Source: an uncultured Pelagibacteraceae bacterium (GTDB taxonomy: Bacteria > Pseudomonadota > Alphaproteobacteria > Pelagibacterales > Pelagibacteraceae). From it: a DNA stretch of 37,537 nucleotides. Location: positions 1 to 37,537 of the forward strand of contig CACDEK010000004.1 of NCBI GenBank assembly GCA_902551735.1. Direction: 5' to 3'. A program made the translations under genes and the position numbers. Below the pieces are notes generated by a model that saw only the letters and a list, made by a program, of their open reading frames with translations, did not search any database and was not told where the DNA came from. Below, one piece after another: positions 5,057-27,643 of the stretch (position 1 is the stretch's first letter; every line of letters begins with the position of its first letter).

Positions 5057-5067
5057 AAGCAAATATA

Positions 5068-6033: not shown

Positions 6034-6047
6034 GATAAATTTGCGCA

Positions 6048-7481: not shown

Positions 7482-7631
7482 ACTTTTTTCATAAAACATT
7501 ATTTTTTAAATAATCAAAATATCCATTTTGGGTTAAATTAATATTATATATCAAGGTTAAAAAAAACCATCAAAAATTTTCATTTACATAAGTTTTAAAA
7601 TGTTTAGCGTTTGCTTTAAACTATATAGAAG

Positions 7632-7638
7632 AAAGGAG
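7632..7638 (+). promoter_or_regulatory. Ribosome binding site deciding the NCS1 start
   Basis: AAAGGAG lies 6 bases before the ATG at 7645. It argues for that start over the ORF-track start at 7600, whose extra 15 residues (MFSVCFKLYRRKENI) do not look like part of the family. Confidence 0.7.
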
Positions 7639-7644
7639 AATATA

Positions 7645-9099
7645 ATGGGTAAATCTTCTAAACTATACAATAAAGATTTAGCTCCAACACCAAGTAGTGA
7701 AAAAAAGTGGGGTTGGTTTGAAATCTTTAACGTATGGGCAAATGATGTACAAAGTTTATTTGGATATACTTTGGCAGCATCATTATTTTTAGCCTCAGGG
7801 CTAAATGGTTGGGCTGTATTTATAGCATTAATCCTTGCAGGATTTTTTATAATGTGGCTTGTCAACTTATCAGGTAAACCAAGTGTTAAACATGGTATTC
7901 CTTACCCGGTATTTGCAAGAGTTAGCATGGGCGTATTTGGAGCAAACTTTCCAGCCATGGCTAGAGGACTTGTTGCAATGTTTTGGTATGGAGCACAGAC
8001 TTACGCAGCTTCAACAGCTGTAGCACTTTTAATAACTGCTATTACTGGAATACAAGGGGAAGTAATGTTCCTTGGAATGACAGGTGTAATGTGGGTATCT
8101 TTTATATTTGTGTCTGCATTTCAAGTATATTTATTCTGGCAAGGTGTAGATCTTGTTAGAAGATTCTTAAATTTTGCAGGACCTGCTGTTTATGTTGTTA
8201 TGTTAATTTTAATGATAGCAATATGGGCTAAAGCTGGCGGAGGACTGTTATCAGAAGTTGGTGAAATATTTTCTGGTGGAGCGCGTTCTGGTGGTTTTGA
8301 AGGTTTAGGATCATTTGGAGCTTTCTTAGCTGTATTTTCGATTATGGTTGGTTATTTTGCAGCAGTAGTAATAAACTTTGGTGACTTCGCTAGATTTGTT
8401 AAAAATGAAGATGAAATGAAAAAAGGAAATCTATGGGGATTAGTAGGTAACGTTGTTTTCTTTTCATTTATAACTTTAATGATTACTGGAGGAACAATTG
8501 CAATATTCGGAGAATATATTGCACAACCCACAGATATGGTTGCAAAAGTAGACAATCTACTTTTAACTATTATTGCAGCTTTTGCATTCTTTGCAGCTAC
8601 AGTTGGTATTAATATGGTTGCTAACTTTATACCTCCTGCATATGACCTTGCTAATTTAATGCCTAGCAAAATTAATTTCAGAATTGGTGGACTAATAACT
8701 GCAATTTGTGGATTTATAATTGGAGGAATGTGGGTAGCGGTAATTACTAAAATGGGAATGTTTCCATTTGTTAATACGCTTGGAGCAATTTTAGCACCAG
8801 TGTTTGGTATAATGATTGTCGATTACTATATAATAAAAAAACAAAAACTAGATGTAGATGATTTGTTTTCAGAAAGTGCTAGTGGAAAATATCACTACAA
8901 TGGTGGTTTTAACGGAAAGGGAATGTTAGCTTGGGCATTATCTGGTTACATTGCAGTTGGATCCGTATGGCCAAACATACTAGTTTTAGGACTTGGTGAT
9001 TTCTTCGCTAATTTAGGCGGAGGTGGTGGATATGCTTGGATGATAGGAGCAGCATTAGGTGCTATCATTCACTTAGCTATATCTGGTAGACAAAAGTAA
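7645..9099 (+). CDS. NCS1 family nucleobase/allantoin-type cation symporter
   Basis: This inner-membrane transporter has 484 residues and about 12 hydrophobic segments. NCS1 hallmarks are clear: an N-terminal WGWFEIFNVWANDVQSLFGY, then KHGIPYPVFARVSMGVFGANFPA and FWYGAQTYAAST, which line the substrate path in Mhp1-type proteins. Family members import hydantoins, allantoin, uracil, cytosine or thiamine with Na+ or H+. The substrate here cannot be assigned. The gene is monocistronic: 163 bases separate it from the aldehyde dehydrogenase gene, and a strong terminator follows. The neighbouring 5-oxoprolinase genes make a cyclic amide substrate possible but unproven. Confidence 0.85.
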   Translation: MGKSSKLYNKDLAPTPSSEKKWGWFEIFNVWANDVQSLFGYTLAASLFLASGLNGWAVFIALILAGFFIMWLVNLSGKPSVKHGIPYPVFARVSMGVFGANFPAMARGLVAMFWYGAQTYAASTAVALLITAITGIQGEVMFLGMTGVMWVSFIFVSAFQVYLFWQGVDLVRRFLNFAGPAVYVVMLILMIAIWAKAGGGLLSEVGEIFSGGARSGGFEGLGSFGAFLAVFSIMVGYFAAVVINFGDFARFVKNEDEMKKGNLWGLVGNVVFFSFITLMITGGTIAIFGEYIAQPTDMVAKVDNLLLTIIAAFAFFAATVGINMVANFIPPAYDLANLMPSKINFRIGGLITAICGFIIGGMWVAVITKMGMFPFVNTLGAILAPVFGIMIVDYYIIKKQKLDVDDLFSESASGKYHYNGGFNGKGMLAWALSGYIAVGSVWPNILVLGLGDFFANLGGGGGYAWMIGAALGAIIHLAISGRQK

Positions 9100-9120
9100 A
9101 CAATATATTTTAAATTTTAA

Positions 9121-9154
9121 ACTCGCCGCATTAAATTGCGGCGGGTTTTTTTTT
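9121..9154 (+). terminator. Rho-independent terminator after the NCS1 gene
   Basis: The hairpin CTCGCCGCA/TGCGGCGGG has a 9-10 bp G+C-rich stem (one G-U pair) and a 6-base loop, and a run of nine T residues follows it. It ends the NCS1 transcript and faces the end of pxpA. Confidence 0.9.
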
Positions 9155-9160
9155 AGATAA

Positions 9161-9934
9161 TTAATTAAATTTTTTCATTTTATTTAATGGTTTTAATATC
9201 AAACCATTTGACAATAAATTTTCTTTTATTGATTTAGCTGTTGCAAGAGAACTTAGATTGTCTCCGTGTATACAAACAGAGTCAATTTCACAAGGTATTT
9301 GTTTACCAGAAAAACAGTTTAAAGCTTGATTTTTAACCATACTGAGCACATGTTTTTTTGCTATTTCAGGATCAGTTATTAAGGCGTGTTCTTTTGATCT
9401 TGATACAAGATTTCCATTATCTTCATAGTTTCTATCAGCGAAAATTTCACATGCTATTTTCATATTTAATTTTTTAGCAGCAATTTCCATTTTAGATCCT
9501 GTAGGTGCAAGAAAAATTATGTTTTTATCAATACTGGATATTGCTTTAGCAATAGTATTTGCCAAATCCAAATCTTCACAAGCCATATTGTTAAGCGCTC
9601 CATGAGGTTTTATATGAGTTACATCTTCGTTATTTTTTAAAGCTATTTTTTGTAAAATTTCGTATTGATCAATAATTAATTTAGTTACTTCTGAAGAAGA
9701 AAGATTGATTCTTTTCCTACCAAAATTTTCTGGATCCTTAAATGATGGATGGGCTCCAATACTTACACCGTTTGCTTTAGAAATTTTAATAACCATGTTC
9801 ATTGTTTCATCATCTCCAGCATGATAACCACATGCAATATTAGCTGAATTAACTATATTCAGTAACTCAGGGTCATTTTCAATAGAATGAAACTTTGATT
9901 TTTCTCCTAAATCACAATTGATATTAATTTCCAT
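9161..9934 (-). CDS. pxpA: 5-oxoprolinase subunit A (LamB/YcsF family)
   Basis: PxpA works with PxpB and PxpC to open 5-oxoproline (pyroglutamate) to glutamate with ATP. I place the start at the ATG at 9932-9934, giving 257 residues that begin MEININCDLGE, the conserved LamB/YcsF opening. The track's 10 extra residues are not family-like. Other family signatures are ANIACGYHAGD, GAHPSFKD, HIKPHGALNN and FADRNY. It is divergent from pxpB, with only 28 bases between the start codons, so one short control region must serve both directions. Splitting pxpA from pxpBC onto opposite strands is less common than a pxpABC operon. Confidence 0.9.
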   Translation of the reverse strand: MEININCDLGEKSKFHSIENDPELLNIVNSANIACGYHAGDDETMNMVIKISKANGVSIGAHPSFKDPENFGRKRINLSSSEVTKLIIDQYEILQKIALKNNEDVTHIKPHGALNNMACEDLDLANTIAKAISSIDKNIIFLAPTGSKMEIAAKKLNMKIACEIFADRNYEDNGNLVSRSKEHALITDPEIAKKHVLSMVKNQALNCFSGKQIPCEIDSVCIHGDNLSSLATAKSIKENLLSNGLILKPLNKMKKFN

Positions 9935-9962
9935 AATATTAATAGTTGAAGTATAACACGAC

Positions 9963-10637
9963 ATGATAAAAAATATATCAAATCTTGGTGACGCAGCATT
10001 ATATTGTGATTTTGGTGAAGAAGTTAATAAAGAAATTAATTCAATAGTAATTAATTATTTTAACAATATAAAAGAAAAAAAAATTTTAGGAATTACCAAT
10101 ATTGCTCCCTCATATAACAAATTAATTATAACTTTTGATTTAAGCTTAACAAATTTTGACAAAATAAGTGAGATAATAAAAGGTATAAATATAAAACCTT
10201 ACGAAAACAGTAAAAATAAATTAATAAAAATTCCTATATGTTGTGATGACGAGTTCGCATTAGATATTGATAGACTTGAAAAAAATTTTGAAATTTCAAA
10301 AGATCAAATCCTAAAAACTTTTTTTTCTAAAGAATATTTTTGTTACATGACAGGTTTTATTGCAGGTATGCCTTTCTTAGGAGATATTGATCAAAACATC
10401 AGATTAAAAAGATTAGAAACTCCAAGAGTAAAAGTTCCCAAAGGATCTGTAGGTATAACAGAAAAATTTTGCAATATCTATACATTTGAAAGTCCAGGTG
10501 GTTGGAACATTATTGGAAACTCACCAATAAAAGTTTTTGATAAATCCAATAAGGTAAATCCGGCTCTAATTAATCCTGGTGATACTGTTAGTTTTTACAA
10601 AATTAATATGAAAGAATATAAAAATTGGAATGAGTAA
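9963..10637 (+). CDS. pxpB: 5-oxoprolinase subunit B (KipI family)
   Basis: This 224-residue cytosolic subunit resembles the N-terminal part of allophanate hydrolase subunit 1. Recognisable elements are GDAALYCDFG at the start, GFIAGMPFLGDID and the conserved PRVKVPKGSVGI...ESPGGWNIIG. With PxpA and PxpC it forms the ATP-dependent 5-oxoprolinase. The stop overlaps the start of pxpC by 8 bases, implying translational coupling. Confidence 0.88.
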   Translation: MIKNISNLGDAALYCDFGEEVNKEINSIVINYFNNIKEKKILGITNIAPSYNKLIITFDLSLTNFDKISEIIKGINIKPYENSKNKLIKIPICCDDEFALDIDRLEKNFEISKDQILKTFFSKEYFCYMTGFIAGMPFLGDIDQNIRLKRLETPRVKVPKGSVGITEKFCNIYTFESPGGWNIIGNSPIKVFDKSNKVNPALINPGDTVSFYKINMKEYKNWNE

Positions 10638-11580
10638 TTATAATTTTCAAGTTTTGCGAGCAGGAATAAATACTACTTTTCAAGATAAAGGTAGAAATAA
10701 TCTTTATCATATAGGAATACCTTTTAGTGGAGCAATGGATAATCGTAATTACCTAATAGCAAACTATTTAGCTGGTAATAAAAAAAATACAACAGTTATA
10801 GAATTTGCTTATCAAGGTCCATTATTAAAATTTAATGGTGAAAAAATTTGTTTAGTAATAACAGGGGATGTAACTTTTAATATTATAAAAAAAAATTTAA
10901 ATGTAGAAAAGGGAAACTGTTATCAATCATATTATCTTACAGATGGTGACCAAATAGATATTTTATCAACCAATAGATCGGTTTATGGTTATTTGGCAGT
11001 AAGTGGAGGTTTTAACGTTGAATTATTCTGGAATAGCAGTTCCACAAATACTAAAGCAAGAATAGGAGCTAATAATGGTGAAAAGATTAAAAAGGATAGT
11101 TTAATAGAAATATTAAAACCCCAAAAAATTTATCCGTTAAAAAAATTGAAATATTTCAATTCAAAAATCGAGCAAATTAGAATTATTAAAGGAACTAACT
11201 ATAGTTATTTTTCAAAAGATGGAAAAAAAAATTTTTTGGAAAAAAAATTTATTGTTTCTAAATTAACGGACAGAATGGGTATGAGATTAGAGGGCCCTAA
11301 AATAGAAAATATTGTTGATACAAATATAAGATCTGAAGGTTTAATTAAAGGAGTAATACAGGTACCACCGGATGGAAATCCAATTATTATGCTGTCTGAT
11401 CATGGAACAATAGGAGGTTATCCTAAAATTGGAGTAGTAATTAGTGCTGATTACGATAAGTTAGTTCAACTTCAGCCAGGATCAAAAATAAAATTCAAAG
11501 AGGTAAGTCTTTTTGAAGCAGAGAATTTATACAAAATATATTCTATGGAAACACAAAATATACTAAATCAAATAACATGA
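10630..11580 (+). CDS. pxpC: 5-oxoprolinase subunit C (KipA family)
   Basis: This 316-residue third 5-oxoprolinase subunit is of the biotin-dependent carboxyltransferase-like KipA/urea amidolyase family. The diagnostic N-terminus INTTFQDKGR...GIPFSGAMD is present, as are SGGF, MGMRLEGP and a C-terminal LSDHGTIGGYPKIGVV. It overlaps pxpB by 8 bases and the downstream EamA transporter by 4 bases (ATGA), so the three are one transcript. Recycling of 5-oxoproline to glutamate would recover nitrogen and carbon from an amino-acid damage product or from dissolved organic matter. Confidence 0.9.
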   Translation: MSNYNFQVLRAGINTTFQDKGRNNLYHIGIPFSGAMDNRNYLIANYLAGNKKNTTVIEFAYQGPLLKFNGEKICLVITGDVTFNIIKKNLNVEKGNCYQSYYLTDGDQIDILSTNRSVYGYLAVSGGFNVELFWNSSSTNTKARIGANNGEKIKKDSLIEILKPQKIYPLKKLKYFNSKIEQIRIIKGTNYSYFSKDGKKNFLEKKFIVSKLTDRMGMRLEGPKIENIVDTNIRSEGLIKGVIQVPPDGNPIIMLSDHGTIGGYPKIGVVISADYDKLVQLQPGSKIKFKEVSLFEAENLYKIYSMETQNILNQIT

Positions 11581-12443
11581 ATTTAATTTCTAAATTACCA
11601 GGTCCTTTACTGGTTTTTTTTGGAGCTATTACACTTAGTTTTGGTGGAATAATTGTAAAATCTTTTGAAGGTGCAAATCTTTGGCAAATACTTTTTTGGA
11701 GACAAATTTTTTTTTCAATTACTGTTGTTTTATATTTACTTTTTACCTATAAAAAAAATTTTTTTAAATCATTTTATGACTCCGGTTTACCAGGTTTTTT
11801 TGGTGGTTTAGCATTATCAGTTGGATTTGCAGCATATGTATTTGCCATGTATACAACTACTGTAGCAAATACAAATTTTATAATTACTTTAGAGACAATT
11901 TTTTTAGCATTGTTTGGTTATTTTTTTCTAAAAGAAAAAATTAATTTAATCACATTAATCTCAATAATTTTAGGAATATCTGGAGTTTTAATAATACTTG
12001 GAAACTCTTTAACTATTCAAACTAGCGAACAATTTTTAGGAAATATTGTTGCACTTATAATGCCAATATCTTTTGCTGTGCTTGTTATTATTGTTAGAAA
12101 ATATCCAAATGTAGATATGGTTCCATCTCAATTCACCGCCGGAATTGCAGCAGCATTAATAGGTTTTTTTATAGCTGACCAATTAATTATGTCATTTAAA
12201 GATTTTATTTTGGCTTCTATAGCTGGAATTTTTCAAATAGGATTTGGGTTTATTTTTATTACAGTAGGTTCGCGCACAACACCTGCGGCCGTAGTTGGGG
12301 TTTTAATGTTAACAGAGTCTGTTTTCGGTCCCTTATGGGCATGGCTTTTTATTAATGAAGTGCCACCCCTGACTGTACTTTTTGGTGGTGGTGTGATTAT
12401 TTCTGCAATTTTATTCCAGTCAGTTTTTGGTAAAAAAGAGTAA
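11577..12443 (+). CDS. EamA/DMT superfamily transporter
   Basis: This 288-residue membrane protein has about ten hydrophobic segments arranged as two EamA repeats. The first repeat ends around ANTNFIITLETIFLALFGYFFLKEKI, and the second ends at VLMLTESVFGPLWAWLFINEVPPL. Both show the glutamate-plus-basic ending that marks the repeat. Drug/metabolite transporters export or import small metabolites, and the substrate is not predictable. It is coupled to pxpC through an ATGA overlap, so transport of an amino acid or 5-oxoproline-related compound is a contextual guess only. Confidence 0.85.
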   Translation: MNLISKLPGPLLVFFGAITLSFGGIIVKSFEGANLWQILFWRQIFFSITVVLYLLFTYKKNFFKSFYDSGLPGFFGGLALSVGFAAYVFAMYTTTVANTNFIITLETIFLALFGYFFLKEKINLITLISIILGISGVLIILGNSLTIQTSEQFLGNIVALIMPISFAVLVIIVRKYPNVDMVPSQFTAGIAAALIGFFIADQLIMSFKDFILASIAGIFQIGFGFIFITVGSRTTPAAVVGVLMLTESVFGPLWAWLFINEVPPLTVLFGGGVIISAILFQSVFGKKE

Positions 12444-12444
12444 A

Positions 12445-13689
12445 ATGAAAATTGCTGTAATTGGTTCTGGCATATCGGGTCTAAGTGCTGCTTATTATTT
12501 ATCAAAAAAACATAATGTTGATTTATTTGAAAAAGAAAATCATTTTGGTGGCCATTCTCATACTATAAATGTTGCTTATACTGAAAAAAAACAAATACCA
12601 GTAGATATAGGTTTTATTGTTTTTAACGAATTAACTTATCCAAATTTAATTAATTTTTTTAAAGAAAATAAAATTCAAGTTGAAAAAAGTAACATGTCTT
12701 TTTCTGTTTCTGTAAAAGATACAAATATTGAATATTGTGGTAAAGGAATTAGTGGAATTTTCTCGAACAGAAAAAATTTTTTTAATTTTAAATTTATAAA
12801 AATGTTTTTTGAGATTATTAATTTTTACAAAAAATGCTCAAATATTGATTTTAATACTCTTAGTAGCGAGACATTAGAAAATTTTTTAAAAAAAGAAAAT
12901 TTATCTGACTACTTTATAAACTATCATATTATCCCCATGGTTGCTGCGATATGGTCTATGCCACCATATGAAGCGAGACAAATGCCACTAAATTTTTTTA
13001 TAAATTTTTTTAAAAATCATGGTTTATTTAATTTAAAAAATAGACCTCAGTGGTTTACTGTATCAAATAGAAGCAAAACTTACGTAAATAAAGTAATTAA
13101 TCAAATAAGTGGAGAGTATTATAAAAACTACGCTATAAAAAAAATATCAAGAAATAATAATAATATTAAAGTTTACTATGGATCAGAAAATGAGTTTTTT
13201 AACTATGACAAGGTAGTTTTAGCTACTCATGCAGATCAAGCCTTATCTTTAATAGAAAACCCTTCCTTGGAAGAGAAAAATATTTTAAAAAATTTTAAAT
13301 ACAAAAAAAATTTAGCAGTCATTCATTCAGATCAAAGTTTTATGCCAACTAACAAAAAGGCTTGGTCTTCATGGAATTCTTCAATTCTAAAAAACGATAA
13401 AACTAAAAGTTCAGTAACATATTGGTTAAACTTATTACAAAATCTTAAAATAGAAAAAAATATTTTTTTAACTTTAAACCCGTACTACGAAATTCCTAAG
13501 AATCAAATTTATGAAAAGGTTCATTTTACACATCCTTACTATGATTATAATGCTTTAAAATCTCAAAATGAACTTAGTATATTACAGAACAAAAAAGATA
13601 TATTATTTTGTGGTAGTTATTTTGGTTACGGATTTCATGAAGATGGCATTAAATCAACTCTAGAAATGTTAAAGTATATAAATGATTAA
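12445..13689 (+). CDS. FAD-dependent amine-oxidase-like oxidoreductase
   Basis: The track start at 12427 would overlap the previous gene. The ATG at 12445 gives 414 residues opening with the dinucleotide-binding motif (AVIGSGISGLSAAYYL) and the following GG motif (FEKENHFGGHSHT), so I use it. The fold is the flavin amine oxidase/desaturase type. It heads a tight set with DUF1365, a cyclopropane-fatty-acid-synthase-like methyltransferase and DUF3833. That combination recurs in proteobacteria, where the flavoprotein is thought to act on fatty acyl chains of membrane lipids, as in furan or methylated fatty-acid formation. Role inferred from synteny. Confidence 0.82.
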   Translation: MKIAVIGSGISGLSAAYYLSKKHNVDLFEKENHFGGHSHTINVAYTEKKQIPVDIGFIVFNELTYPNLINFFKENKIQVEKSNMSFSVSVKDTNIEYCGKGISGIFSNRKNFFNFKFIKMFFEIINFYKKCSNIDFNTLSSETLENFLKKENLSDYFINYHIIPMVAAIWSMPPYEARQMPLNFFINFFKNHGLFNLKNRPQWFTVSNRSKTYVNKVINQISGEYYKNYAIKKISRNNNNIKVYYGSENEFFNYDKVVLATHADQALSLIENPSLEEKNILKNFKYKKNLAVIHSDQSFMPTNKKAWSSWNSSILKNDKTKSSVTYWLNLLQNLKIEKNIFLTLNPYYEIPKNQIYEKVHFTHPYYDYNALKSQNELSILQNKKDILFCGSYFGYGFHEDGIKSTLEMLKYIND

Positions 13690-14449
13690 CTCTTCGTTTA
13701 TTTATAATGGTAATGTAATTCATAAAAGATTTAAACCTAAAGAACATTTTTTTAAGTACAAAGTATTTTCTCTTTTAATTGATTTGTCTGAATTAAATTT
13801 ATTAGAAAAAGAACTTAAATTATTTTCGTATAATAAATTTAATATATTAAGTTTTTATGACATTGATCATGGTCCAAGAGATGGAACTTCTTTAATTACA
13901 TGGGTTAAAGAAAATTTGTCCAAAAATAATATAAATACTGAACAAATCACTATTAAACTTCTATGTTACCCTAGAATATGGGGTTATGTATTTAATCCAC
14001 TAAGTGTATTTTTCATTTATGATAAAAATTTTAATTTGATATCAATTCTTTACGAAGTAAAAAATACATTTGGAGAGCAACACACGTATATTTTTAAAAT
14101 AGAAAAAAATAATCATTTATTTGAACATTCTTGTAAAAAAAAATTTCATGTTTCACCATTTATTGAAATTGACTGTACATATTTTTTTAAAATTTTAAAA
14201 CCTGAAAACAAACTTTCAATAGTTATTAATCAAAATGATGATCAAGGAAAACTTCTCTTTGCCTCCCAAGATGGCGAAAAAAAAGATTTAAATAGCAAAA
14301 ATTTGCTAATTTCATACTTATCTCACCCTTTAATGTCCTTTAAAATTATTGGGGCGATACATTTTGAGGCATTAAAACTTTGGTTAAAAGGAGTTAAGTT
14401 GGTAAAAAAGAAACTCAAAATTAAAAATAATATAACTTTTGAAAATTAA
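13682..14449 (+). CDS. DUF1365 family protein
   Basis: This 255-residue cytosolic protein is recognised as DUF1365 by its start (FIYNGNVIHKRFKPKEHFFKYKVF), by PRIWGYVFNPLSVFF and YDKNFNLISILYEVKNTFGEQHTY, and by a C-terminal SYLSHPLMSFKIIGAIHFEALKLW. It overlaps the flavoprotein gene by 8 bases and is followed after one base by the Cfa-like gene. DUF1365 is found almost always beside these two partners, so it probably serves the same lipid modification. No activity can be read from motifs. Confidence 0.82.
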   Translation: MINSSFIYNGNVIHKRFKPKEHFFKYKVFSLLIDLSELNLLEKELKLFSYNKFNILSFYDIDHGPRDGTSLITWVKENLSKNNINTEQITIKLLCYPRIWGYVFNPLSVFFIYDKNFNLISILYEVKNTFGEQHTYIFKIEKNNHLFEHSCKKKFHVSPFIEIDCTYFFKILKPENKLSIVINQNDDQGKLLFASQDGEKKDLNSKNLLISYLSHPLMSFKIIGAIHFEALKLWLKGVKLVKKKLKIKNNITFEN

Positions 14450-14450
14450 T

Positions 14451-15626
14451 ATGATCCAAACTTTTTCTGATAATTTAATTTTTAGTGCATTAAAGCTTAT
14501 TAAGCATGGAAATCTTGAATTAACAAATTTTGATGGCAAAAAGTACAATTTTGGAGAAAAAGATAAAAATTTAAATGTAAGTTTAAAAATCAATAAACCT
14601 GGGTTTACTTTTAACGTAATTCGAAAGGGTAGTATTGGTCTTGCAGAGTCATACATGCGTGGGGAGTTTGAAACAAATAATCTTTCAGATTTAATTGAAT
14701 TAACAGCAAAAAATATCAAAATTATTTATAAATTTTCCGGTATATTTGATTTTACACTTATTAATTCTATAAAAAGTGTTTTTATTAAAAATACAAAAAA
14801 AAAAAGTATAGAAAATATTTCAAAACATTATGACCTTGGAAATGAATTTTTTTCTTTGTGGCTTGATAAAACTCTTACATACTCAAGTGCGATATTTGAA
14901 AATGAAAAAAATAACCTTGAAGATGCACAAATAAACAAATATCAAAAATTAGTTAGTCTTTTAAAACCAAAAATGGGAGATAAAATTTTAGAAATAGGTT
15001 GTGGCTGGGGAGGATTTGCAGAATACCTAGGTAAAAACTTTGATATAAAAATGGATTGTATTACTATTTCTAAGAAACAATTTGAATTTTCAAAAGAAAG
15101 AATATTTAAAAACAAGCTTAATGAAAAAGTTAACATACAAATGATGGATTATAGAGATGTTAAAAATAAATATAATTCGATCGCATCTATCGAAATGATA
15201 GAAGCAGTGGGAAAAAATTATTTAAAAAGTTATTTTCAAAAAATTAAAGAAAATTTAGGCCAACAAGGAGTTGCAGCGATACAAGCAATAACGATAGATG
15301 ATAAATTATTTGATAGATATAAAAAAAAAGAAGACTTTATTCAAAAATATATATTTCCTGGTGGATTTTTACCTTCAAAAAAAAGTTTATATAAATATGC
15401 TAAAGACTCGGGCTTAAGTATGGAAGAGTATAATTCATATGGATCGCATTATTCAAATACATTAAATATTTGGAGAGGTGAATTTATTAGTAAATGGGAA
15501 GAAATTTCAAAACAGGGGTTTGATTTGACTTTCAAAAGAATGTGGAATTTTTATTTATCTTATTGTGAAGCTGGATTTAAATCTAAAAATATAGATTTAA
15601 TTCAGTTTTCGATGCAAAATAGATAA
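14451..15626 (+). CDS. Cyclopropane-fatty-acyl-phospholipid synthase-like methyltransferase
   Basis: This 391-residue SAM-dependent enzyme acts on unsaturated fatty acyl chains of membrane phospholipids. I chose the ATG at 14451, one base after the DUF1365 stop. The track uses a TTG at 14439 inside the previous gene. The SAM-binding motif KILEIGCGWGGFAEYLG is near residues 178-194. Cfa-family markers SKHYDLGNEFFSLWLD, TYSSAIF, FPGGFLPS and NIWRGEF are present. Known relatives in such clusters make cyclopropane, or methylated precursors of furan fatty acids, so the exact product is open. Confidence 0.87.
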   Translation: MIQTFSDNLIFSALKLIKHGNLELTNFDGKKYNFGEKDKNLNVSLKINKPGFTFNVIRKGSIGLAESYMRGEFETNNLSDLIELTAKNIKIIYKFSGIFDFTLINSIKSVFIKNTKKKSIENISKHYDLGNEFFSLWLDKTLTYSSAIFENEKNNLEDAQINKYQKLVSLLKPKMGDKILEIGCGWGGFAEYLGKNFDIKMDCITISKKQFEFSKERIFKNKLNEKVNIQMMDYRDVKNKYNSIASIEMIEAVGKNYLKSYFQKIKENLGQQGVAAIQAITIDDKLFDRYKKKEDFIQKYIFPGGFLPSKKSLYKYAKDSGLSMEEYNSYGSHYSNTLNIWRGEFISKWEEISKQGFDLTFKRMWNFYLSYCEAGFKSKNIDLIQFSMQNR

Positions 15627-15631
15627 TAGTA

Positions 15632-16168
15632 ATGAAAAAAAAACTACTTTTATTTTTTTTAATATTTGTAATTTTTTTTATATTTTTAAATAAAGACGAT
15701 ATGAAACCAGAAGATTTTAAAAACACCGAACCAGTGATGCGAATAGAAAGTTATTTTGATGGAAATGTCAAAGCTTGGGGTATTTTACAAGATAGAAAAG
15801 GTAAAGTTACAAGGCAATTTAAAGCTAATATGTTTGGAAAATTTGAAGATAACATGCTTACACTTGATGAAGAATTTTTTTGGAAGGATGGAGAAAAACA
15901 AAAAAGAATTTGGAAAATTAAAAAAATTGATGAACATAATTATATAGGTACTGCTCCGGATGTCGTTGGAGAAGCGAAAGGATTTTCATATGGTTCTGCA
16001 TTTAAATTTGAATATGATTTATTAATACCTATAAAAGGAAAAAATATTAAAATTAGATTTGATGATTGGATATTTAAACAAGATGAAGAAGTTGCAATTA
16101 ATAGAGCAACATTAACAAAATTTGGTTTTAAAGTTGGTGAGTTAACAGTAGTTTTTCAAAAATATTAA
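15632..16168 (+). CDS. DUF3833 family lipoprotein-like or membrane-anchored protein
   Basis: This 178-residue protein has a hydrophobic N-terminal helix (LLLFFLIFVIFFIFL), so it is anchored or secreted. The rest matches the DUF3833 pattern: PEDFKNTEPVMRIESYFDGNVKAWGILQDRKG, FKANMFGKF, then LDEEFFWKDGEKQKRIW and WIFKQDEEVAINRATLTKFGFKVGELTVVF. It follows the Cfa-like gene after 5 bases. In proteobacteria DUF3833 accompanies this lipid cluster, often together with an SDR. The C-terminal half of an SDR does lie convergently next door, and the two stop codons overlap at TTAA. Confidence 0.8.
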   Translation: MKKKLLLFFLIFVIFFIFLNKDDMKPEDFKNTEPVMRIESYFDGNVKAWGILQDRKGKVTRQFKANMFGKFEDNMLTLDEEFFWKDGEKQKRIWKIKKIDEHNYIGTAPDVVGEAKGFSYGSAFKFEYDLLIPIKGKNIKIRFDDWIFKQDEEVAINRATLTKFGFKVGELTVVFQKY

Positions 16169-17640
16169 CGACCAACTAGTTTCATTCCTTTTTTTACAAG
16201 TTTTAAATAAAGCCAATTAGGCATAATTTGTAAAATTTTCATAATAAACGTAAATTGTTTTGGAAAATGAATTTCAAAAGCATTCGATTGAGTTAAACCC
16301 TTAAACATTTGATTGGCAGCATACTCTGGTGATTTTATCATAGGCATAGGAAAATCATTTTGGTCTGTCATAGGAGTTTTTATAAATCCAGGGTGTACAA
16401 CAGAAACTCTTACGTCAAATCTTTTTAAGTCAAAATATAAACTTTCGGCGTAATTAGTTAATGCAGCTTTAGATGCACAGTAAGCACCACCTGCTGGGAG
16501 ACCCCTATATCCAGCCACTGATGAAACTATTGAAATATGTCCAGATGCACCACCAACCAGAGCAGGAGTAATGTAATATCCAATTGCAAGTATAAATACT
16601 AATAAACAACCTGCTCCTATACCGGGTATTGTTAATGGGAAATAAACTTTCCAAAAAGCTACAAAAGGCGTGCCTCCTAAAGATTTACCTGCTCTCATTA
16701 AGCTAGGAGATATTGTTTTCATAACGCTATACAAAGGTAATACCATAAAAGGCAAAAGAATTTGCGTCATAGCTATATAGGTACCAGTTTTATTATACAT
16801 CATCTCTGGCCTACTATCGTCACCAACCAATCCTATCCAAACAAAAAAGTCATTTACAATGCCTTGTTGTTGTAACAAAATCATCCAACTCGCTGTTCGC
16901 ACAAGTAAAGAAGTCCAAAAAGGTAAAAGAACACAAATCATTAATAAATTACTGTATTTCATTGGTAGTGTTGCTAACAAATGTGCAATTGGATAACCCA
17001 TTAAAAAACAAAGAATTGTCACAACAACAGCTACCTCTAGAGTTCTTAACCAAAGTATTCTATGTATTCTTCTATCCTCTTCTACTTGAACAACTTTTCC
17101 ATCCTCATCAAAATACATATCCATACCCTTTAGGTATTTTCCCGCAGTATACGGAGGAGCTGTTCTTTTTATTGCTTGCCAATATTTAACATCCCTAAAT
17201 CTTTTATGAACTGCCATAATTTGTTCTTTAACATTACCTTCCTCAAATTTTTTCATTTTTCTCCATAACTTTTTGAGAATTGTATTAAATCCATTTTTTT
17301 CTTTATTTAGCCTTTGACCTAGTTTTCCGTGTTCTTTTTTTTCAGCAAGGGCTTTGAAATCCGATAAAAAACTAGCAAAAACTTCTTCTGAAGGTAGTTC
17401 TTTTCCATCCCAAGTTTCCATTGCTTTAAATGTTTTGGGCAACATATTTGTAACCATTCTGTCATCGATACTTCTTGTAAACATTTCACCTATTGGAAAA
17501 ATATAAGTAATAATTATAAAAAGTAGTAATGGAGCAACTAAAAGAAAAGCTTTAATTTTATTTTTCTTTTCTGCTTTTTTTAGACTTACCTCTAGCGGGA
17601 TTCCGTCTGTAGTTAAAATTTTTTGTGTTTCACTGCTCAT
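16165..17640 (-). CDS. Chimeric ORF: PotB-type permease N-terminal part fused to SDR C-terminal half
   Basis: Residues 1-367 are a PotB-type ABC permease. There is a first helix (about 30-50), a large periplasmic insert (about 55-195), further helices, and the EAA loop LMRAGKSLGG...FPLTIPGI. At ALVGGASG (residues 361-367) the permease stops and a short-chain dehydrogenase begins: IVSSVAGYRGLPAGGAYCASKAAL, with catalytic Ser and Tyr387/Lys391, to the end at 491. The SDR lacks its TGxxxGxG Rossmann half, and the permease lacks its last helices, so neither part should work. The SDR end is tightly convergent with DUF3833, which suggests it is in its native place. The missing permease end matches 1-108. 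An inversion or assembly join is the best explanation; a genuine fusion protein is unlikely. Confidence 0.85.
   Translation of the reverse strand: MSSETQKILTTDGIPLEVSLKKAEKKNKIKAFLLVAPLLLFIIITYIFPIGEMFTRSIDDRMVTNMLPKTFKAMETWDGKELPSEEVFASFLSDFKALAEKKEHGKLGQRLNKEKNGFNTILKKLWRKMKKFEEGNVKEQIMAVHKRFRDVKYWQAIKRTAPPYTAGKYLKGMDMYFDEDGKVVQVEEDRRIHRILWLRTLEVAVVVTILCFLMGYPIAHLLATLPMKYSNLLMICVLLPFWTSLLVRTASWMILLQQQGIVNDFFVWIGLVGDDSRPEMMYNKTGTYIAMTQILLPFMVLPLYSVMKTISPSLMRAGKSLGGTPFVAFWKVYFPLTIPGIGAGCLLVFILAIGYYITPALVGGASGHISIVSSVAGYRGLPAGGAYCASKAALTNYAESLYFDLKRFDVRVSVVHPGFIKTPMTDQNDFPMPMIKSPEYAANQMFKGLTQSNAFEIHFPKQFTFIMKILQIMPNWLYLKLVKKGMKLVGR
16531..16554 (-). other. Chimera junction between permease and SDR sequence
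   Basis: The change from permease-like to SDR-like protein falls within GGASGHIS. Both families plausibly carry a similar stretch here (GGxSGxMIS in PotB-type permeases, GxGHIxxxSS in SDRs), so a short shared DNA word may mark the breakpoint. The exact base cannot be fixed without intact relatives. Confidence 0.65.
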
Positions 17641-17672
17641 AAATAAAAAGGGCGGTTATTAAATAACCGCCC
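17641..17672 (-). terminator. Hairpin terminator/attenuator between binding-protein and permease genes
   Basis: On the minus strand GGGCGGTTA pairs with TAACCGCCC (9 bp), followed by CTTTTTATTT. It lies between the binding-protein stop and the permease start, so it probably lets most transcripts end after the binding-protein gene. Confidence 0.8.
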
Positions 17673-17709
17673 TAAATATAATATATAATTTTAGTCTTTA
17701 AAACTTAAA

Positions 17710-18825
17710 TTATAGACCAGCTTTCATAGCTTCCCATTTTTCACCAAGCTCTGTGCCGTTATCAGCCCAAAAGAATGGGTCAACTAGGAAGTAATTTTTT
17801 GTGTTTGCTGGCGCTGTTGGCATATGTGGTACCATGTTTGTTTTACCATCTTTATACCAAGGCTCTCCTGCTTTCATAACTTCGATAGAAGATTTTCTCC
17901 AAGGAGCGTAAGCAATATACTTAGCGCTTCCAGCTAACATTTCTGTGTTAGTCATCATAGAAAGAGCTTTCATAGCGTTTTCTTGATCTGGACCACCTTT
18001 AACAAGTGCAAAATATTCATAGTCAAGACCTTGAGCGTCCCAAACTTGAACGATCGGTGCACCTTCTCCAACTGTAGCGTTAAAGAATCTTCCGTTCCAA
18101 CCAGTTGCCATAACAACTTCACCACTCATTAATAATTCTGGTGGTTGAGCACCTGCTGACCAAAACACACAACCTCCGTTAGGATCTGTGCAAAGTTTTT
18201 TGATCTTATCCATTGCTCTTTTAACACCTTTTTCAGTGTTTAAAGCTTCATAGATTTTTGCTCCGCCTTTTTTTGGTTTAATACCATCTGCTGCTAAAGC
18301 AATCTCCAGGTTTGTTAGAGCAGATTTATAGATAGCTCTTTTTCCAGGAAATTTTTTAGTGTTAAAAAAATCTTTTATAGTTTTTGGAGTACCTTTAACA
18401 TTGTCGCTGTTATAAGCATAGTTCCAAGAATATAAAATATTTCCTACAGCACATTTACTAGGCATTGAAGTGAAGAAGTCTTCACTTGCAGGTGTACCAT
18501 CTGGAGCTGCTGGAAAGTCTTTGTCAAAATCAAATTCAACAAATATACCTTCGTCACATCCATTAATTGTATCAAATGCAAATACGTCAATTATATCCCA
18601 TACAATTGCACCTGCTTCCTTTTGTGCTTTAATTTCCGATAATCCACCCGAGTAGTCTACCCAGTTAATTTCTATGCCTAATTTTGCAGCAGTAGGATCA
18701 CCGTACCCTAATTTTTGAGACTCTGTATAAGCTCCACCCCAAGATGCAATAGTAACTGCAAATGCAGATGAAGTTATAGAAAGAGCAAAAGATAGAGCAA
18801 GTAACAATTTACTTAATTTTTTCAT
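17710..18825 (-). CDS. Periplasmic substrate-binding protein, PotD/PotF type
   Basis: This extracellular solute-binding protein of the spermidine/putrescine family has 371 residues. A signal peptide is visible (residues 1-23, ending SSAFA), followed by VTIASWGGAYTESQK, the family's first strand. Later family features include WDIIDVFAFD, NILYSWNYAYN, FPGKRAIYKS and VVMATGWNGRFFNA. The ATG is preceded by a GGAGG Shine-Dalgarno 4 bases upstream. A good promoter lies in the 128-base gap upstream and a hairpin follows the gene, so it is set up for expression above the other transporter subunits. The ligand is not predictable: polyamines are the family default, but neighbouring ectoine-type hydrolases raise other amines. 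Confidence 0.9.
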   Translation of the reverse strand: MKKLSKLLLALSFALSITSSAFAVTIASWGGAYTESQKLGYGDPTAAKLGIEINWVDYSGGLSEIKAQKEAGAIVWDIIDVFAFDTINGCDEGIFVEFDFDKDFPAAPDGTPASEDFFTSMPSKCAVGNILYSWNYAYNSDNVKGTPKTIKDFFNTKKFPGKRAIYKSALTNLEIALAADGIKPKKGGAKIYEALNTEKGVKRAMDKIKKLCTDPNGGCVFWSAGAQPPELLMSGEVVMATGWNGRFFNATVGEGAPIVQVWDAQGLDYEYFALVKGGPDQENAMKALSMMTNTEMLAGSAKYIAYAPWRKSSIEVMKAGEPWYKDGKTNMVPHMPTAPANTKNYFLVDPFFWADNGTELGEKWEAMKAGL

Positions 18826-18860
18826 TTATCCTCCGTTTAAACGTTTTTTTTAAAAATTGA

Positions 18861-18889
18861 ATTACAACAAGTAAGAAAAATGGAGTCAA
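18861..18889 (-). promoter_or_regulatory. Sigma-70-type promoter for the binding-protein gene
   Basis: On the minus strand TTGACT (18889-18884) and TGTAAT (18866-18861) are separated by 17 bases, each one mismatch from consensus. The site lies about 35 bases before the start codon. The palindrome CGTTTAAACG follows, next to the GGAGG ribosome binding site. Confidence 0.6.
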
Positions 18890-18953
18890 CCTCTGATTTG
18901 GCCTAAAATCATTATAATTGTGCTAAAAATACTTAGAATTTTTCTAAACTATT

Positions 18954-20042
18954 TTACTTTGGGTCTAATGCTCTTGCGTCTTGGCTATTCCAACCAACGT
19001 TAATTTCATTCCCAAGTTTTATATCCATCCTCGCAGAACTATTAGGAACCTTAAGTATAAAGTCTTTATTGCCTAACAAATCTAATCTAACTCTTGTGTG
19101 ATCGCCATGGTAAATGACTTCTTCTATTTTACCTTTATGTTTATTATCCATTTTATTTTCAGGGTCTATAGTCGCTCTCTCAGGTCTTAAAGAAACAATA
19201 GTTCTTTCACCTTTTGATTTTACTCTAATCGGATTTGAAAATATTTCTACACCAGAATCTAATTTAACCTTGCACTTGTTTTCTGATATATCTGTGACCT
19301 CTCCTGAAAAGGTATTATTCTCTCCAATAAACTCAGCTACGAAAGAATTTACAGGTTCTTCATAAAGTTTGTCTGGACTTGAAAGTTGTTGAACCTTACC
19401 ATCATTAAATACTGCTATTCGATTTGACATTGTTAAAGCCTCACCTTGATCGTGAGTAACGTAAACTACAGTAACGCCAATACTTTCATGTATATGTTTT
19501 ATTTCATATTGCATACTTTCTCTTAAATTTTTATCTAAAGCTCCTAACGGTTCATCCATTAGTACTACTTGAGGATCAAATACTAAAGCTCTTGCTACAG
19601 CTACTCTTTGTTGTTGCCCACCAGATAATTGTCCTGGCATTCTTTTTTCAAAGCCTGAAAGTGAAACCATTGATAAAACTTTATCAACTTTTTTATCTAT
19701 TTCATCTTTTGCAATTTTTCTAACCTTTAAAGGAAATGCTAAATTTTCATAGACAGTCATATGAGGAAACAAAGCATAGTTTTGGAAAACCATTCCAATT
19801 CCTCTTTTATGAGGGGGAATATTTGAAATAGGATTTTGATCTAAAAAGATTTCTCCATTAGTTGGTGTTTCAAATCCTGCTAACATCATAAGGCATGTTG
19901 TTTTTCCAGAACCAGAAGGTCCCAACATTGTTATAAATTCACCCTCTGCAATATTTAAATTTAAATCTTTAACTACTAAAATTTTACCATCGTAGCTTTT
20001 ATCAACTTTATCAAATTTAACGAATTCCTGGTTCTTTGACAT
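18954..20042 (-). CDS. ABC transporter ATP-binding protein, PotA type
   Basis: This 362-residue cytosolic ATPase energises the Pot-type importer. Walker A is GPSGSGKTT (41-49), the signature is LSGGQQQR (139-146), Walker B is VLMDEPLGALD (160-170), and the switch histidine lies in VYVTHDQGEAL. A TOBE-type C-terminal domain (about 245-360) is typical of PotA/MalK relatives. It lies upstream of the binding-protein gene, separated by 128 bases with its own promoter. In the restored order the transporter reads ATPase, binding protein, PotB, PotC. Confidence 0.92.
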   Translation of the reverse strand: MSKNQEFVKFDKVDKSYDGKILVVKDLNLNIAEGEFITMLGPSGSGKTTCLMMLAGFETPTNGEIFLDQNPISNIPPHKRGIGMVFQNYALFPHMTVYENLAFPLKVRKIAKDEIDKKVDKVLSMVSLSGFEKRMPGQLSGGQQQRVAVARALVFDPQVVLMDEPLGALDKNLRESMQYEIKHIHESIGVTVVYVTHDQGEALTMSNRIAVFNDGKVQQLSSPDKLYEEPVNSFVAEFIGENNTFSGEVTDISENKCKVKLDSGVEIFSNPIRVKSKGERTIVSLRPERATIDPENKMDNKHKGKIEEVIYHGDHTRVRLDLLGNKDFILKVPNSSARMDIKLGNEINVGWNSQDARALDPK

Positions 20043-20082
20043 GAGAAGTTAAAACATTTGTGGAGTTTTTTTTCAAGCTATT

Positions 20083-21249
20083 TTATTTTATGTGCAAATC
20101 TCTAGAGTAATTGCAGAATAATTCGCTTCCACTATCGGTTACTCTTACAGACTCTGAAGCTTCAACTCCCCATTCACCAAATTGCATGACAGCAATCATA
20201 TGAAAACATACATTGGGCTGCAAAACTGTCATGTCACCTTTATAAATATTTAATGTGTGTTCACCCCAATCTGGTGGATACCCGATTCCAATAGAATAAC
20301 CTGTTCGAGATTCCTTTTTAATATTATACTTGTCTAACACTCCCCAAAACTTTTGAGCTACATCATTTGCTGTATTTCCAGGTTTTGTAGCAGATATACC
20401 TGCATCGAGAGCTTCATTTGTTGCTTTCATAGCATCAATTTTTTTTTGGTCTGGTTTTCCAAGAAGAACTGTTCTAGCCATTGGACAATGATATCTTTTG
20501 TTAACTCCTGATAGCTCAATTATAGTGGCTTCTCCTTTAACAAACTTTTCATCTGTTGCCGTTAAATGTGAGGCTGAAGTTCCTTTGCCTGTTGGTAATA
20601 ATGTTGCGATGCTTGCATATTCCCCACCAATTTCAGGTGTCCCTCTAAAAAGTGCTCTTTGTATTTCAGCAACTGCATCACATTGTCTAACTCCTGGATT
20701 AATATTTTCCATAGCTACCTTCATTCCTTCTTGAGATATTAAAGCTGCTCCTTTCATAAGGTTTATTTCTGCTTCAGATTTTACTAGTCTTGCCCAATTA
20801 ACAAGTCTTTCGGAGTCTTTAATTTTTGCATTAGGTAGTCCTTGTTTAAGTTTTTCATAACAATACGCAGTAAAATAATGACTATCCATTTCAACGCCAA
20901 TAGTTAACTTGTCCCAATTATTTTTCTTTATTAGTTCAATTAAAGGATCATATGGATGCATTGGCCATGTATGTATATATTTTTCTTCATAAACAATTAT
21001 ATTTTCTCTTTTTAAATAAGTTTTAATATATGCACCGCCAGCATCTTGGGCTCTTACAAAACACAAAGGTTCATCAGAATTTACATGAACTATTACACAT
21101 TGAGAGTAATAAAATGACCAAGCATCATATCCAGTTAAATAATTAATGTTATTTGTATCTTGAGAAATTAGTAGTTCAATACTCTTCTCTTGCATTGAAT
21201 TTTGAACTTTTTTTAATCTGTTTTTATATTCTTCTTTTGTAAATAACAT
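20083..21249 (-). CDS. doeA: M24/creatinase-fold hydrolase, ectoine hydrolase DoeA-like
   Basis: This 388-residue pita-bread-fold enzyme has an N-terminal creatinase domain (about 1-150) and a catalytic domain. The usual M24 metal ligands are absent: the first pair's region reads IIELSGVNKRYHCPMARTV, with Glu and Pro where aminopeptidases have Asp. It therefore looks like the non-metallo creatinase/ectoine hydrolase group. DoeA-like features are NYLTGYDAWSFY, HPYDPLIELI, SASHLTATDE and GYSIGIGYPPDWGEHTLNIYKGD. DoeA opens ectoine to N-acetyl-diaminobutyrate. An EutA-like gene lies 2 bases upstream, supporting ectoine-type catabolism. No DoeB deacetylase is in the window, so the substrate remains an inference. 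Confidence 0.7.
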   Translation of the reverse strand: MLFTKEEYKNRLKKVQNSMQEKSIELLISQDTNNINYLTGYDAWSFYYSQCVIVHVNSDEPLCFVRAQDAGGAYIKTYLKRENIIVYEEKYIHTWPMHPYDPLIELIKKNNWDKLTIGVEMDSHYFTAYCYEKLKQGLPNAKIKDSERLVNWARLVKSEAEINLMKGAALISQEGMKVAMENINPGVRQCDAVAEIQRALFRGTPEIGGEYASIATLLPTGKGTSASHLTATDEKFVKGEATIIELSGVNKRYHCPMARTVLLGKPDQKKIDAMKATNEALDAGISATKPGNTANDVAQKFWGVLDKYNIKKESRTGYSIGIGYPPDWGEHTLNIYKGDMTVLQPNVCFHMIAVMQFGEWGVEASESVRVTDSGSELFCNYSRDLHIK

Positions 21250-21251
21250 TT

Positions 21252-21998
21252 TTAATTTGCTGAAAAAAGTTTTCCAAAACCATTTATTGAATCATTAATA
21301 CCAATCTTTTTTAAAGTATCCCATATTAAAGCTTGATTGCTAGACAAAACTATTTTATTCAGTTTTTTTTCAAGCTTATCGATTATTGATAAAGCAGGCA
21401 AAGCTGTACATGAAATAAATAAGGCATCAGCTCCATTCAAATCCATTTTTAATAATACTTCGTACAAATAATCAGGATCAACCTTTCCAATATCTATATC
21501 TGATTCAATGTCAAAATAAGAGTTTGCGGTAATTTGAAATTTTTCTTTTTTAAAAAAATTTATTACCTCATCATTTAATTTTTTTGGATAAGGAGTAAAA
21601 ATTGCAATTTTTGTTAAATTTAATTTTTTAAGTGCTATAATAGAAGATGTACTTGGAGTTGTTACTTCTGCTTCTGGTTTTGCTTTTTTAATTTTGCTTT
21701 TTATAGAATCGTATCCTGCTGCAATTGTTCCTGAGGTACAGCCATAAACTACGCAATCGATTTTCTCTCCTGGAAGTATGTCTTGCGTTACATCGGTTAC
21801 GTTTTCAGACATTTTGATTAAATTTTCACGTGTTAGAGGATTAAAGCACTCAATTCTATTTACAAAAAAATCAATTCTTTTGTCTTTGATTACATTAATA
21901 AAATCTTTTTCGATCATATAGTCACTTGCAAGTGCAATTAAACCTATTTTTGGATTTTGATTATTGTTGAATTTTGGATCTATTTTTGTTGAATACAT
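21252..21998 (-). CDS. eutA: Asp/Glu racemase-superfamily protein, EutA/maleate isomerase-like
   Basis: This 248-residue protein carries the two cysteine motifs of the maleate isomerase/arylmalonate decarboxylase branch, VVYGCTSGT and ALFISCTALPAL. Its opening, KIGLIALASDYMIEKDF, and late SSNQALIWDTLKKIG resemble EutA of ectoine-utilisation operons. EutA's reaction is not well defined. The gene is 2 bases upstream of the DoeA-like gene in the same direction, matching the eut context, while eutB, eutC and eutE are absent here. It is divergent from the dehydrogenase at 22058, with 59 bases between starts. Confidence 0.68.
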   Translation of the reverse strand: MYSTKIDPKFNNNQNPKIGLIALASDYMIEKDFINVIKDKRIDFFVNRIECFNPLTRENLIKMSENVTDVTQDILPGEKIDCVVYGCTSGTIAAGYDSIKSKIKKAKPEAEVTTPSTSSIIALKKLNLTKIAIFTPYPKKLNDEVINFFKKEKFQITANSYFDIESDIDIGKVDPDYLYEVLLKMDLNGADALFISCTALPALSIIDKLEKKLNKIVLSSNQALIWDTLKKIGINDSINGFGKLFSAN

Positions 21999-22057
21999 TT
22001 TTCAAAAAGAAATATATCATACGCTTTTGAATATTCATTAAAATTAAAGAGGTTAAT

Positions 22058-22999
22058 ATGAAAATAGGTTTTATAGGACTTGGAAACGTAGGTGGAAAGC
22101 TTGCGGGTAGTTTAATAAGGAATAAATTTAATTTAACTATTAAAGATTTAGATAAAAAAATCGAAAAAGGTTTTGTTGATAAAGGAGCAAATATTGCAAA
22201 TAATGCTAAAGAATTAGCTGAGAATGTTGATTTGATAATCACTTGCTTACCTTCACCTCAAATTTGTGCTGAAGTTATGGAGGCAGCAGATGGTGTAATA
22301 AATGGTCTTTCTAAAAATAAAATTTGGCTAGAAATGAGCACAACTGATGAATCTGAAGTAAAAAGATTAGGAAAATTAGTTTCTGCAAAAGGAGCAATTC
22401 CTCTTGATGGTCCTGTAAGCGGAGGATGTCACAGAGCTGCAACTGGAAATATTGCTGTGTTTGTTGGTGGTGAGAGAAAAGCTTTTGAAAAAATATTACC
22501 TGTCTTAACTGTTATGGGTAGAAAAGTTTTACATACAGGTGATCTTGGTACTGCTTCAATTTTAAAATTAATTACTAATTATCTAGCTTCAACACATTTA
22601 GCTGCATTAGGAGAAGCCTGGACTGTTGCTAAAAAATCTAATTTAGATTTAGTTAAAACTTATAAAGGTATTGCAGTTTCATCTGGAAATTCATTTGTTC
22701 ACGAAACAGAAAGCCAAGTAATTTTAAATGGTTCTTATAATATTAATTTTACAATGGATTTAGTTGTAAAAGACATAACTTTATTTGATAATCTGGCCAA
22801 CAAATTAAATGTACATCCTGAAATTTCCCCACTAATAGTAAAAATATTTAAAGATGGTCAGAAAAAGTATGGCTCTAGAGCTTGGTCCTCTATGATAGTT
22901 AAAAGAATGGAAGATCAAAATAATATAGATTTTAGAGAAAAGGGTTTTCCTTCAGAATTAGTCGATAATGAGCCTGAAGAAAAAGGTAGTGAGATATAA
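22058..22999 (+). CDS. 3-hydroxyisobutyrate dehydrogenase family (beta-hydroxyacid) oxidoreductase
   Basis: This 313-residue NAD(P)-dependent dehydrogenase carries the dinucleotide motif GFIGLGNVGGKLAGSL at the N-terminus, the substrate-binding GPVSGGCHRAATG, and the catalytic lysine in KLITNYL. The family oxidises 3-hydroxyacids such as 3-hydroxyisobutyrate, tartronate semialdehyde products or 4-hydroxybutyrate-like acids. It stands first in a plus-strand series with BHMT and DMGDH (56-base gap), so it may handle a related C3-C4 hydroxyacid. The specific substrate is unknown. Confidence 0.85.
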   Translation: MKIGFIGLGNVGGKLAGSLIRNKFNLTIKDLDKKIEKGFVDKGANIANNAKELAENVDLIITCLPSPQICAEVMEAADGVINGLSKNKIWLEMSTTDESEVKRLGKLVSAKGAIPLDGPVSGGCHRAATGNIAVFVGGERKAFEKILPVLTVMGRKVLHTGDLGTASILKLITNYLASTHLAALGEAWTVAKKSNLDLVKTYKGIAVSSGNSFVHETESQVILNGSYNINFTMDLVVKDITLFDNLANKLNVHPEISPLIVKIFKDGQKKYGSRAWSSMIVKRMEDQNNIDFREKGFPSELVDNEPEEKGSEI

Positions 23000-23055
23000 A
23001 ATTTATATTTCTTTTTACTTAAAATGAGATTAGGCTTTTAAAAAAAGAGAAATTT

Positions 23056-24102
23056 ATGAGTAAGAATTTAATAGAAAGACTTAACAACGGACCTGTTCTT
23101 TGCGCTGAAGGATATTTATTTGCTATGGAAAGAAGAGGATATCTGCAAGCTGGAGCATTTGTTCCTGAAGTAGTATTAGAACATCCAGAGGTAGTTTCAC
23201 AATTACATAGAGAATTTATAAGATCTGGAAGTGAAGTTGTTCAAGCATTCACTTATTATGGACATAGAGAAAAACTTAGAATAATTGGTAAAGAAAAACT
23301 TCTTGAGTCTCTACAAAAAAATGCATTAAAAATTGCAAATGATGCAAGAAATGAATTTAAAGATCTTGATCTAATGGTTGCAGGAAATGTTGCTAATACA
23401 AATGTTTATGATCCAAACGAAAAAAAAAGTAATATAGAATGTCAAAAAATGTTTGAAGAGCAAGTAGCTTGGGCTAAAGAAGCTGGTGTTGATTTTATAA
23501 TTGCAGAAACAATTACTTGGGTTGAAGAATTAAAAATTGCACTTAAAGTTATAAAAGATGCAGGACTCATTGCTGTTTGTAACTATGCTTTTAGAAGAGA
23601 TGGTAAAACAAGAGACGGGTACTCACCTGGAGATGCCTGTAAAGTTTTAGAAGACAATGGAGCTGATGTAGTTGGTTTAAATTGTTTTAGAGGACCTAAA
23701 ATGACAATGAAGCTTTTGCCAGAAATAAGAAAAGCAGTTTCTTGCCATGTTGCTGCACTTCCTGTCCCTTATAGAACTACAGAAAAAGATCCTGGTTTTT
23801 TAAATCAAAAAGACGATGGTTGCGATTGTATACCTGGAGGAAATGCTTTTCCTGTAGCGCTAGATAATTTGTATTGCAATAGATATGAAATGGCTGAATT
23901 TGCAAAAGAATGTGCTGAAAAAAAAATAAATTTTATAGGAATTTGCTGTGGTGCAGAACCTCATCATGTTCGAGAAATGGCGGTAGCTTTAGGAAGAAAG
24001 CCTATTTCATATAAATATTATCCTGACATGACCAAGCATTATGCTCACGGAAATGACCCAACTTTGAAAAAACATAATACAGACGCAGCAAAAACATTAT
24101 AA
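23056..24102 (+). CDS. bhmT: Betaine-homocysteine S-methyltransferase
   Basis: This 348-residue zinc methyltransferase moves a methyl group from glycine betaine to homocysteine, giving methionine and dimethylglycine. Zinc ligands are visible: Cys210 in GLNCFRGP and Cys297/Cys298 in GICCGAEPHH. The N-terminal LCAEGYLFAMERRGYLQAGAFVPEVVLEHPE fits the BHMT branch rather than MetH. DMGDH starts 9 bases downstream, so product and next enzyme are encoded together, and a betaine-type binding protein and permease follow. The context makes betaine demethylation the likely job. Confidence 0.9.
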   Translation: MSKNLIERLNNGPVLCAEGYLFAMERRGYLQAGAFVPEVVLEHPEVVSQLHREFIRSGSEVVQAFTYYGHREKLRIIGKEKLLESLQKNALKIANDARNEFKDLDLMVAGNVANTNVYDPNEKKSNIECQKMFEEQVAWAKEAGVDFIIAETITWVEELKIALKVIKDAGLIAVCNYAFRRDGKTRDGYSPGDACKVLEDNGADVVGLNCFRGPKMTMKLLPEIRKAVSCHVAALPVPYRTTEKDPGFLNQKDDGCDCIPGGNAFPVALDNLYCNRYEMAEFAKECAEKKINFIGICCGAEPHHVREMAVALGRKPISYKYYPDMTKHYAHGNDPTLKKHNTDAAKTL

Positions 24103-24111
24103 GGAAAACTA

Positions 24112-26517: not shown

Positions 26518-26599
26518 TCTATTTTTGGTTGAATCTTATTTGATTTTTTCCCTTAAATATGTTTCTTTTTATAAATATAAACTTACGTAAGGGGAAATA

Positions 26600-27625: not shown

Positions 27626-27643
27626 AATATAAAACTTAATTTT

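Follow-up and report, generated by a model that had tools for sequence, protein, structure and literature searches.

The window, which is the whole stretch of DNA analysed, is the entire contig C4 (G000:C4; 37,537 bp) of an assembly that comprises 856,006 bp in 60 contigs and is 63.5% complete. Its central feature is a single open reading frame of 491 codons in which the N-terminal part of a PotB-type ABC permease is followed, with no interruption, by the C-terminal part of an SDR-family oxidoreductase (Table 1). Pfam places BPD_transp_1 at residues 217-367 of this frame and adh_short at residues 357-427, the latter match being limited to profile positions 119-189 of 195, and NCBIfam assigns residues 197-368 to PotB and residues ~362-484 to SDR families. 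Similarity to the PotB proteins of relatives ends at residues 369-373, and SDR similarity begins at residues 365-366. The permease part (PotB-N) shares 80-96% identity with PotB of most same-genus relatives, and the dehydrogenase part (SDR-C) shares 82% identity with residues 126-250 of a 250-aa SDR in AG-414-L03. The profile matches and the matches to relatives confirm the first-pass annotation, which had described one uninterrupted PotB-to-SDR frame with both parts incomplete, PotB being without its last helices and the SDR without its Rossmann half. This half-permease, half-dehydrogenase anatomy is far beyond chance.

Table 1. Features of the 37,537-bp window, with their strands and the basis on which each was delimited.
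Feature	Position	Strand	Basis or size
Chimeric ORF, PotB-N joined in frame to SDR-C	16165..17640	-	491 aa
PotB-type ABC permease, N-terminal 367 codons	16540..17640	-	Matches to relatives
SDR-family oxidoreductase, C-terminal half (~125 aa), native stop	16165..16546	-	Matches to relatives
Junction microhomology ATCTGGA, Ser-Gly in the same phase in both genes	16540..16546	-	Alignment with PotB and SDR DNA of relatives
PotB C-terminal 35 codons, opposite orientation to PotB-N	1..108	+	Translation, relatives
Segment B, inverted relative to the remaining contig	1..16546		Synteny with relatives
Segment A': PotB-N, PotD, PotA, PepP and further genes	16547..37537		Synteny with relatives
NCS1/PxpA boundary, terminator-like hairpin between two intact genes	9100..9160		Relatives

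The permease core matches the PotB model NF007044 at 1.7e-43, and the gene order PotA-PotD-PotB-PotC is likewise that of the known system. However, the frame lacks the last ~50 residues of PotB, and SAR11 PotB carries an additional long insert before the core. In these SAR11 genomes, PotB measures ~420-435 aa with the insert at residues ~60-195, compared with 285 positions in the PotB model. The dehydrogenase part corresponds to the C-terminal half of an SDR oxidoreductase (PF00106, PRK07024-like) and retains the YCASK active-site motif, but the Rossmann nucleotide-binding half, intact in relatives, is missing. The SDR end itself is native, as had been proposed, because its stop codon (16165-16167) overlaps that of DUF3833 (16166-16168) and the convergent DUF3833/SDR pair is retained in the relatives examined.

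The missing end of PotB had been located at the start of the window in inverted orientation, and it does lie there: the first 108 nt encode DWSFASAMGLMLLTGVLVVYWIYNKLVGIDNIKLG followed by a stop codon, which is the PotB C-terminus, with PotC directly after it. In relatives, exactly 45 nt separate the GGASG codons of PotB from this tail, which adds the detail that 15 codons are missing from the window. PotB-N and the PotB tail are therefore on opposite strands, and the contig consists of two segments in inverted relative orientation, in agreement with synteny. Segment B carries the PotB tail, PotC, HCDH, PPIase, agmatinase, ALDH, an NCS1 permease and PxpA (LamB/YcsF), followed by PxpB, PxpC, EamA, a FAD enzyme, DUF1365, CFA synthase, DUF3833 and SDR-C. 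Segment A', read from the right, follows the gene order of relatives; in AG-435-N04 (L088), for example, an unbroken order extends from ProW2 through PotB and PotC to ALDH1.

Within Segment B, the boundary between NCS1 and PxpA was considered as a second misjoin, since none of the 60 relatives has the two genes side by side. This was rejected, because both genes are intact and are linked on a single contig of AG-426-P23, where they lie 2.5 kb apart; the boundary is probably a genuine arrangement of the lineage. In AG-426-P23 (L168/L169), the space between NCS1 and PxpA is occupied by a minus-strand module resembling allantoin/ureide degradation, in which allantoicase, ureidoglycolate lyase and a PuuE-like gene were recognized by eye.

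At the junction, the PotB DNA of relatives reads GGT-GGT-GCA-TCT-GGA-ACA and their SDR DNA reads AAA-AAA-TCT-GG(A/C)-CAT, with synonymous variants occurring in both, and the window reads GGT-GGT-GCA-TCT-GGA-CAT. The word common to PotB and SDR, as judged from relatives because the intact PotB and SDR of this cell are absent from the assembly, is 6-7 nt long. Since PotB and SDR both read this word as Ser-Gly in one and the same phase, the frame stays open by accident. No inverted repeat of at least 20 nt pairs the two ends of the segment, a result that is not absolute given the 45 nt missing at the left end.

The comparison with relatives that the first-pass annotation had suggested found PotB and SDR intact and separate, and a homologue of the 491-residue fusion in none of the sequences searched, namely the 60 related genomes, the species-genome contigs and IMG/VR. 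Among the matches listed in the 60 relatives, no place matches both parts; each match covers either residues ~1-373 (PotB) or ~365-489 (SDR), always at separate places, and the corresponding open frames are mostly 416-437 aa long for PotB and ~250-270 aa for SDR. In all 80 further loci from species genomes, PotB-N runs on into the PotB tail. The native surroundings of the two genes form two blocks, one with the order AspRac-PepP-PotA-PotD-PotB-PotC-HCDH-PPIase-hypothetical-agmatinase-ALDH (NCS1 permease next in some relatives), and the other with PxpA-PxpB-PxpC-EamA-...-FAD enzyme-DUF1365-CFA synthase-DUF3833, convergent with SDR. In AG-404-N13 the block from PxpA to SDR is contiguous, as in the window.

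In most relatives the PotB and SDR blocks are distant or on separate contigs, and in a relative assembled as a single contig of 1.34 Mb (G012) the two genes are 648 kb apart, compared with 16.5 kb as assembled here and ~9 kb in AG-426-P23. The latter is among the closest relatives (PotB-N 96% identical) and holds both blocks on one contig in the order PotB(+)-PotC ... FAD-DUF1365-CFA-DUF3833(+)-SDR(-). This order indicates that SDR can sit downstream of PotB in the opposite orientation, as an inverted chimera requires, and the linkage of PotB and SDR in the present cell leans on this genome. Among close SAR11 relatives (L170, L169, L178), the order of the PotB and PxpA-SDR blocks has been shuffled; for example, EamA adjoins agmatinase in AG-426-P23, and SDR lies near agmatinase in AG-439-C02.

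Comparison of all 60 contigs of the assembly with themselves for inverted repeats revealed further chimeras of this kind in contigs C24 and C25, in both of which the arm pairs finish at the contig ends. C24 (L227, 1-16309) is a terminal palindrome with arms of 4,996 bp (1-4996 and 11314-16309) that differ by one mismatch. One arm continues into an intact gyrA (872-aa frame), and the other into a 264-aa frame in which GyrA-N passes in frame into RecG-C. The two parts meet at TCACAA, a word that both genes share and that reads Ser-Gln in each; its RecG side is taken from the fusion itself and the family motif. Relatives carry gyrA and recG as intact genes in opposite orientation, at a distance of ~6-7 kb. 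As in the PotB/SDR case, a short word in common links the N-terminal part of one gene, in frame, to the native C-terminal end of a neighbour in the opposite orientation; however, the spacing in C24 is ~6.3 kb, and C24 keeps both arm copies and hence also the intact gyrA. C25 (L228, 1-14772) is likewise a terminal palindrome, its arms of ~3,420 bp being 99.85% identical; on one side ctaA is intact, and on the other it is truncated and continues into a membrane-transport gene. In 152 loci of relatives (2.4 Mb), a search for inverted self-matches of ≥100 bp at 95% identity returned none; these loci constitute a partial control, their stretches being at most ~22 kb and centred on a few regions.

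The fusion ORF is very probably an inverted chimera generated in vitro by multiple displacement amplification (MDA) with phi29 polymerase, and not a biological feature. Those of its closest relatives that have names are single amplified genomes (AG- identifiers), and from these together with the terminal palindromes in the assembly we infer that this DNA was amplified by phi29 and that the assembly represents a single cell amplified by MDA. Events in the tube probably took the following order. In the cell, PotB and SDR would be separate, intact and oppositely oriented genes lying near each other. During phi29 amplification of the SAR11 cell, a nascent strand whose end, ...GCATCTGGA-3', lay within potB may have been displaced. 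After annealing over ~6-7 nt to another displaced strand close by, within the SDR gene, it would have been extended back through DUF3833, CFA synthase and the genes beyond as far as PotC. The assembler would then have followed the chimeric copy, joining PotB-N to the inverted SDR-C, and the contig would have ended within the PotB tail, a stretch common to the true and chimeric paths.

This reading resembles the MDA chimeras described from single cells. Of 475 such chimeras, 85% were inverted (Lasken & Stockwell 2007; PMC1855051), most were joined at 2-21 nt of complementarity, a range that includes the 6-7 nt found here, and 83% of the inversions spanned <10 kb (PMC1855051). The likeness extends to the inverted second segment, the short shared word, a partner that may lie nearby and a probable single-cell template, the relatives being single amplified genomes. 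However, at 16.5 kb the PotB/SDR spacing exceeds the typical distance, C4 retains only one fold-back arm, and microhomology is less frequent in joins beyond 10 kb (PMC1855051). For the workflow behind the AG- genomes, benchmarks reportedly gave 1.5 misassemblies per 100 kb (PMC11247762), and at this rate one misassembly in a 37.5-kb contig is unremarkable. An origin at the amplification step implies that junction-spanning reads may well exist, and such reads alone are not proof of a real junction.

A pure assembler misjoin at the shared short word, in which the chimeric molecule never existed, is very improbable. It is in keeping with a contig end and a junction that fall within the same gene and with the presence of the shared word, but 6-7 nt is far under any usual assembly k-mer, the two sites share no longer repeat, and the kilobase-long inverted copies with sharp joins in C24 and C25 need chimeric template molecules.

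Even less probable is a real, possibly reversible 16.5-kb genomic inversion in this cell, which in an often-reshuffled region would have inactivated polyamine uptake (potB) and the SDR together. A single inversion does explain the order and orientation of all genes, and rearrangements of the region occur in relatives (AG-426-P23, AG-439-C02). However, such an event would have destroyed both potB and the SDR gene in a streamlined genome, it is absent from every relative searched, its ends are without a pairing inverted repeat and share just 6-7 nt of homology at the junction, and MDA-type chimeras are demonstrable in the same assembly beside intact genes. A repeat-mediated inversion was rejected, as no inverted repeat pairs the segment ends. 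The reciprocal PotB-C/SDR-N junction is absent from the assembly, and SDR-N is absent from all 60 contigs, a fact of little weight in an assembly ~64% complete. Inspection of the window ORF translations revealed no recombinase or invertase gene. Of the earlier proposal of a ~16.5-kb inversion or misjoin, the inverted PotB/SDR geometry and the option of a chimera hold, whereas a genuine and possibly reversible rearrangement is not supported, given the absence of the join from relatives, the lack of a long inverted repeat and the two sister chimeras.

The chance that the frame is a genuine fusion gene for a permease-SDR protein is negligible: it is open over 491 codons, but it is missing the end of the PotB membrane domain as well as the SDR Rossmann half, is joined at microhomology and has no homologue in the genomes searched or IMG/VR, so that it is neither conserved nor complete in both domains.

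For the inverted MDA chimera, the left end of the contig provides a further detail. The 45 nt missing from PotB were not found elsewhere in the assembly. The default top k of SPAdes is 55. In the SCGC pipeline, 100 bp are trimmed off contig ends and contigs >2,000 bp are kept (PMC5519541), and the smallest contig in the present assembly is 2,070 bp. A contig built at k=55 that ended at the potB branch and was then trimmed would start 100-55 = 45 nt past the branch, which equals the gap. This fit is suggestive only and was rejected as a general rule, because it holds for C4 but fails for contig 34 of AG-414-L03, where the gap is 282 nt. The latter contig (L181, 1-1608), from a sibling single-cell genome, carries another inverted chimera, in which PxpB residues 1-33 are joined to inverted PxpC at position ~712 and the contig begins at PxpB residue 128.

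The PotB/SDR case is a warning more than a discovery, in that inverted amplification chimeras can yield convincing in-frame fusion genes in single-cell genomes that serve as species representatives. The frames survive in both PotB/SDR and C24 because each shared word is translated into an identical residue pair in the two genes it joins (Ser-Gly and Ser-Gln, respectively). Protein databases could take up such ORFs as new domain fusions, and genes broken by chimeras could be miscounted as pseudogenes. Simple warning signs are a terminal palindrome, or a gene that holds both a contig end and an internal break. Elsewhere in the assembly, a 64-bp unit that includes a tRNA D-arm-like stretch (GCTCGGTAGTAGAGC) occurs as three perfect tandem copies at positions 18251-18448 of contig C17 (L202), where ARAGORN detected no tRNA.
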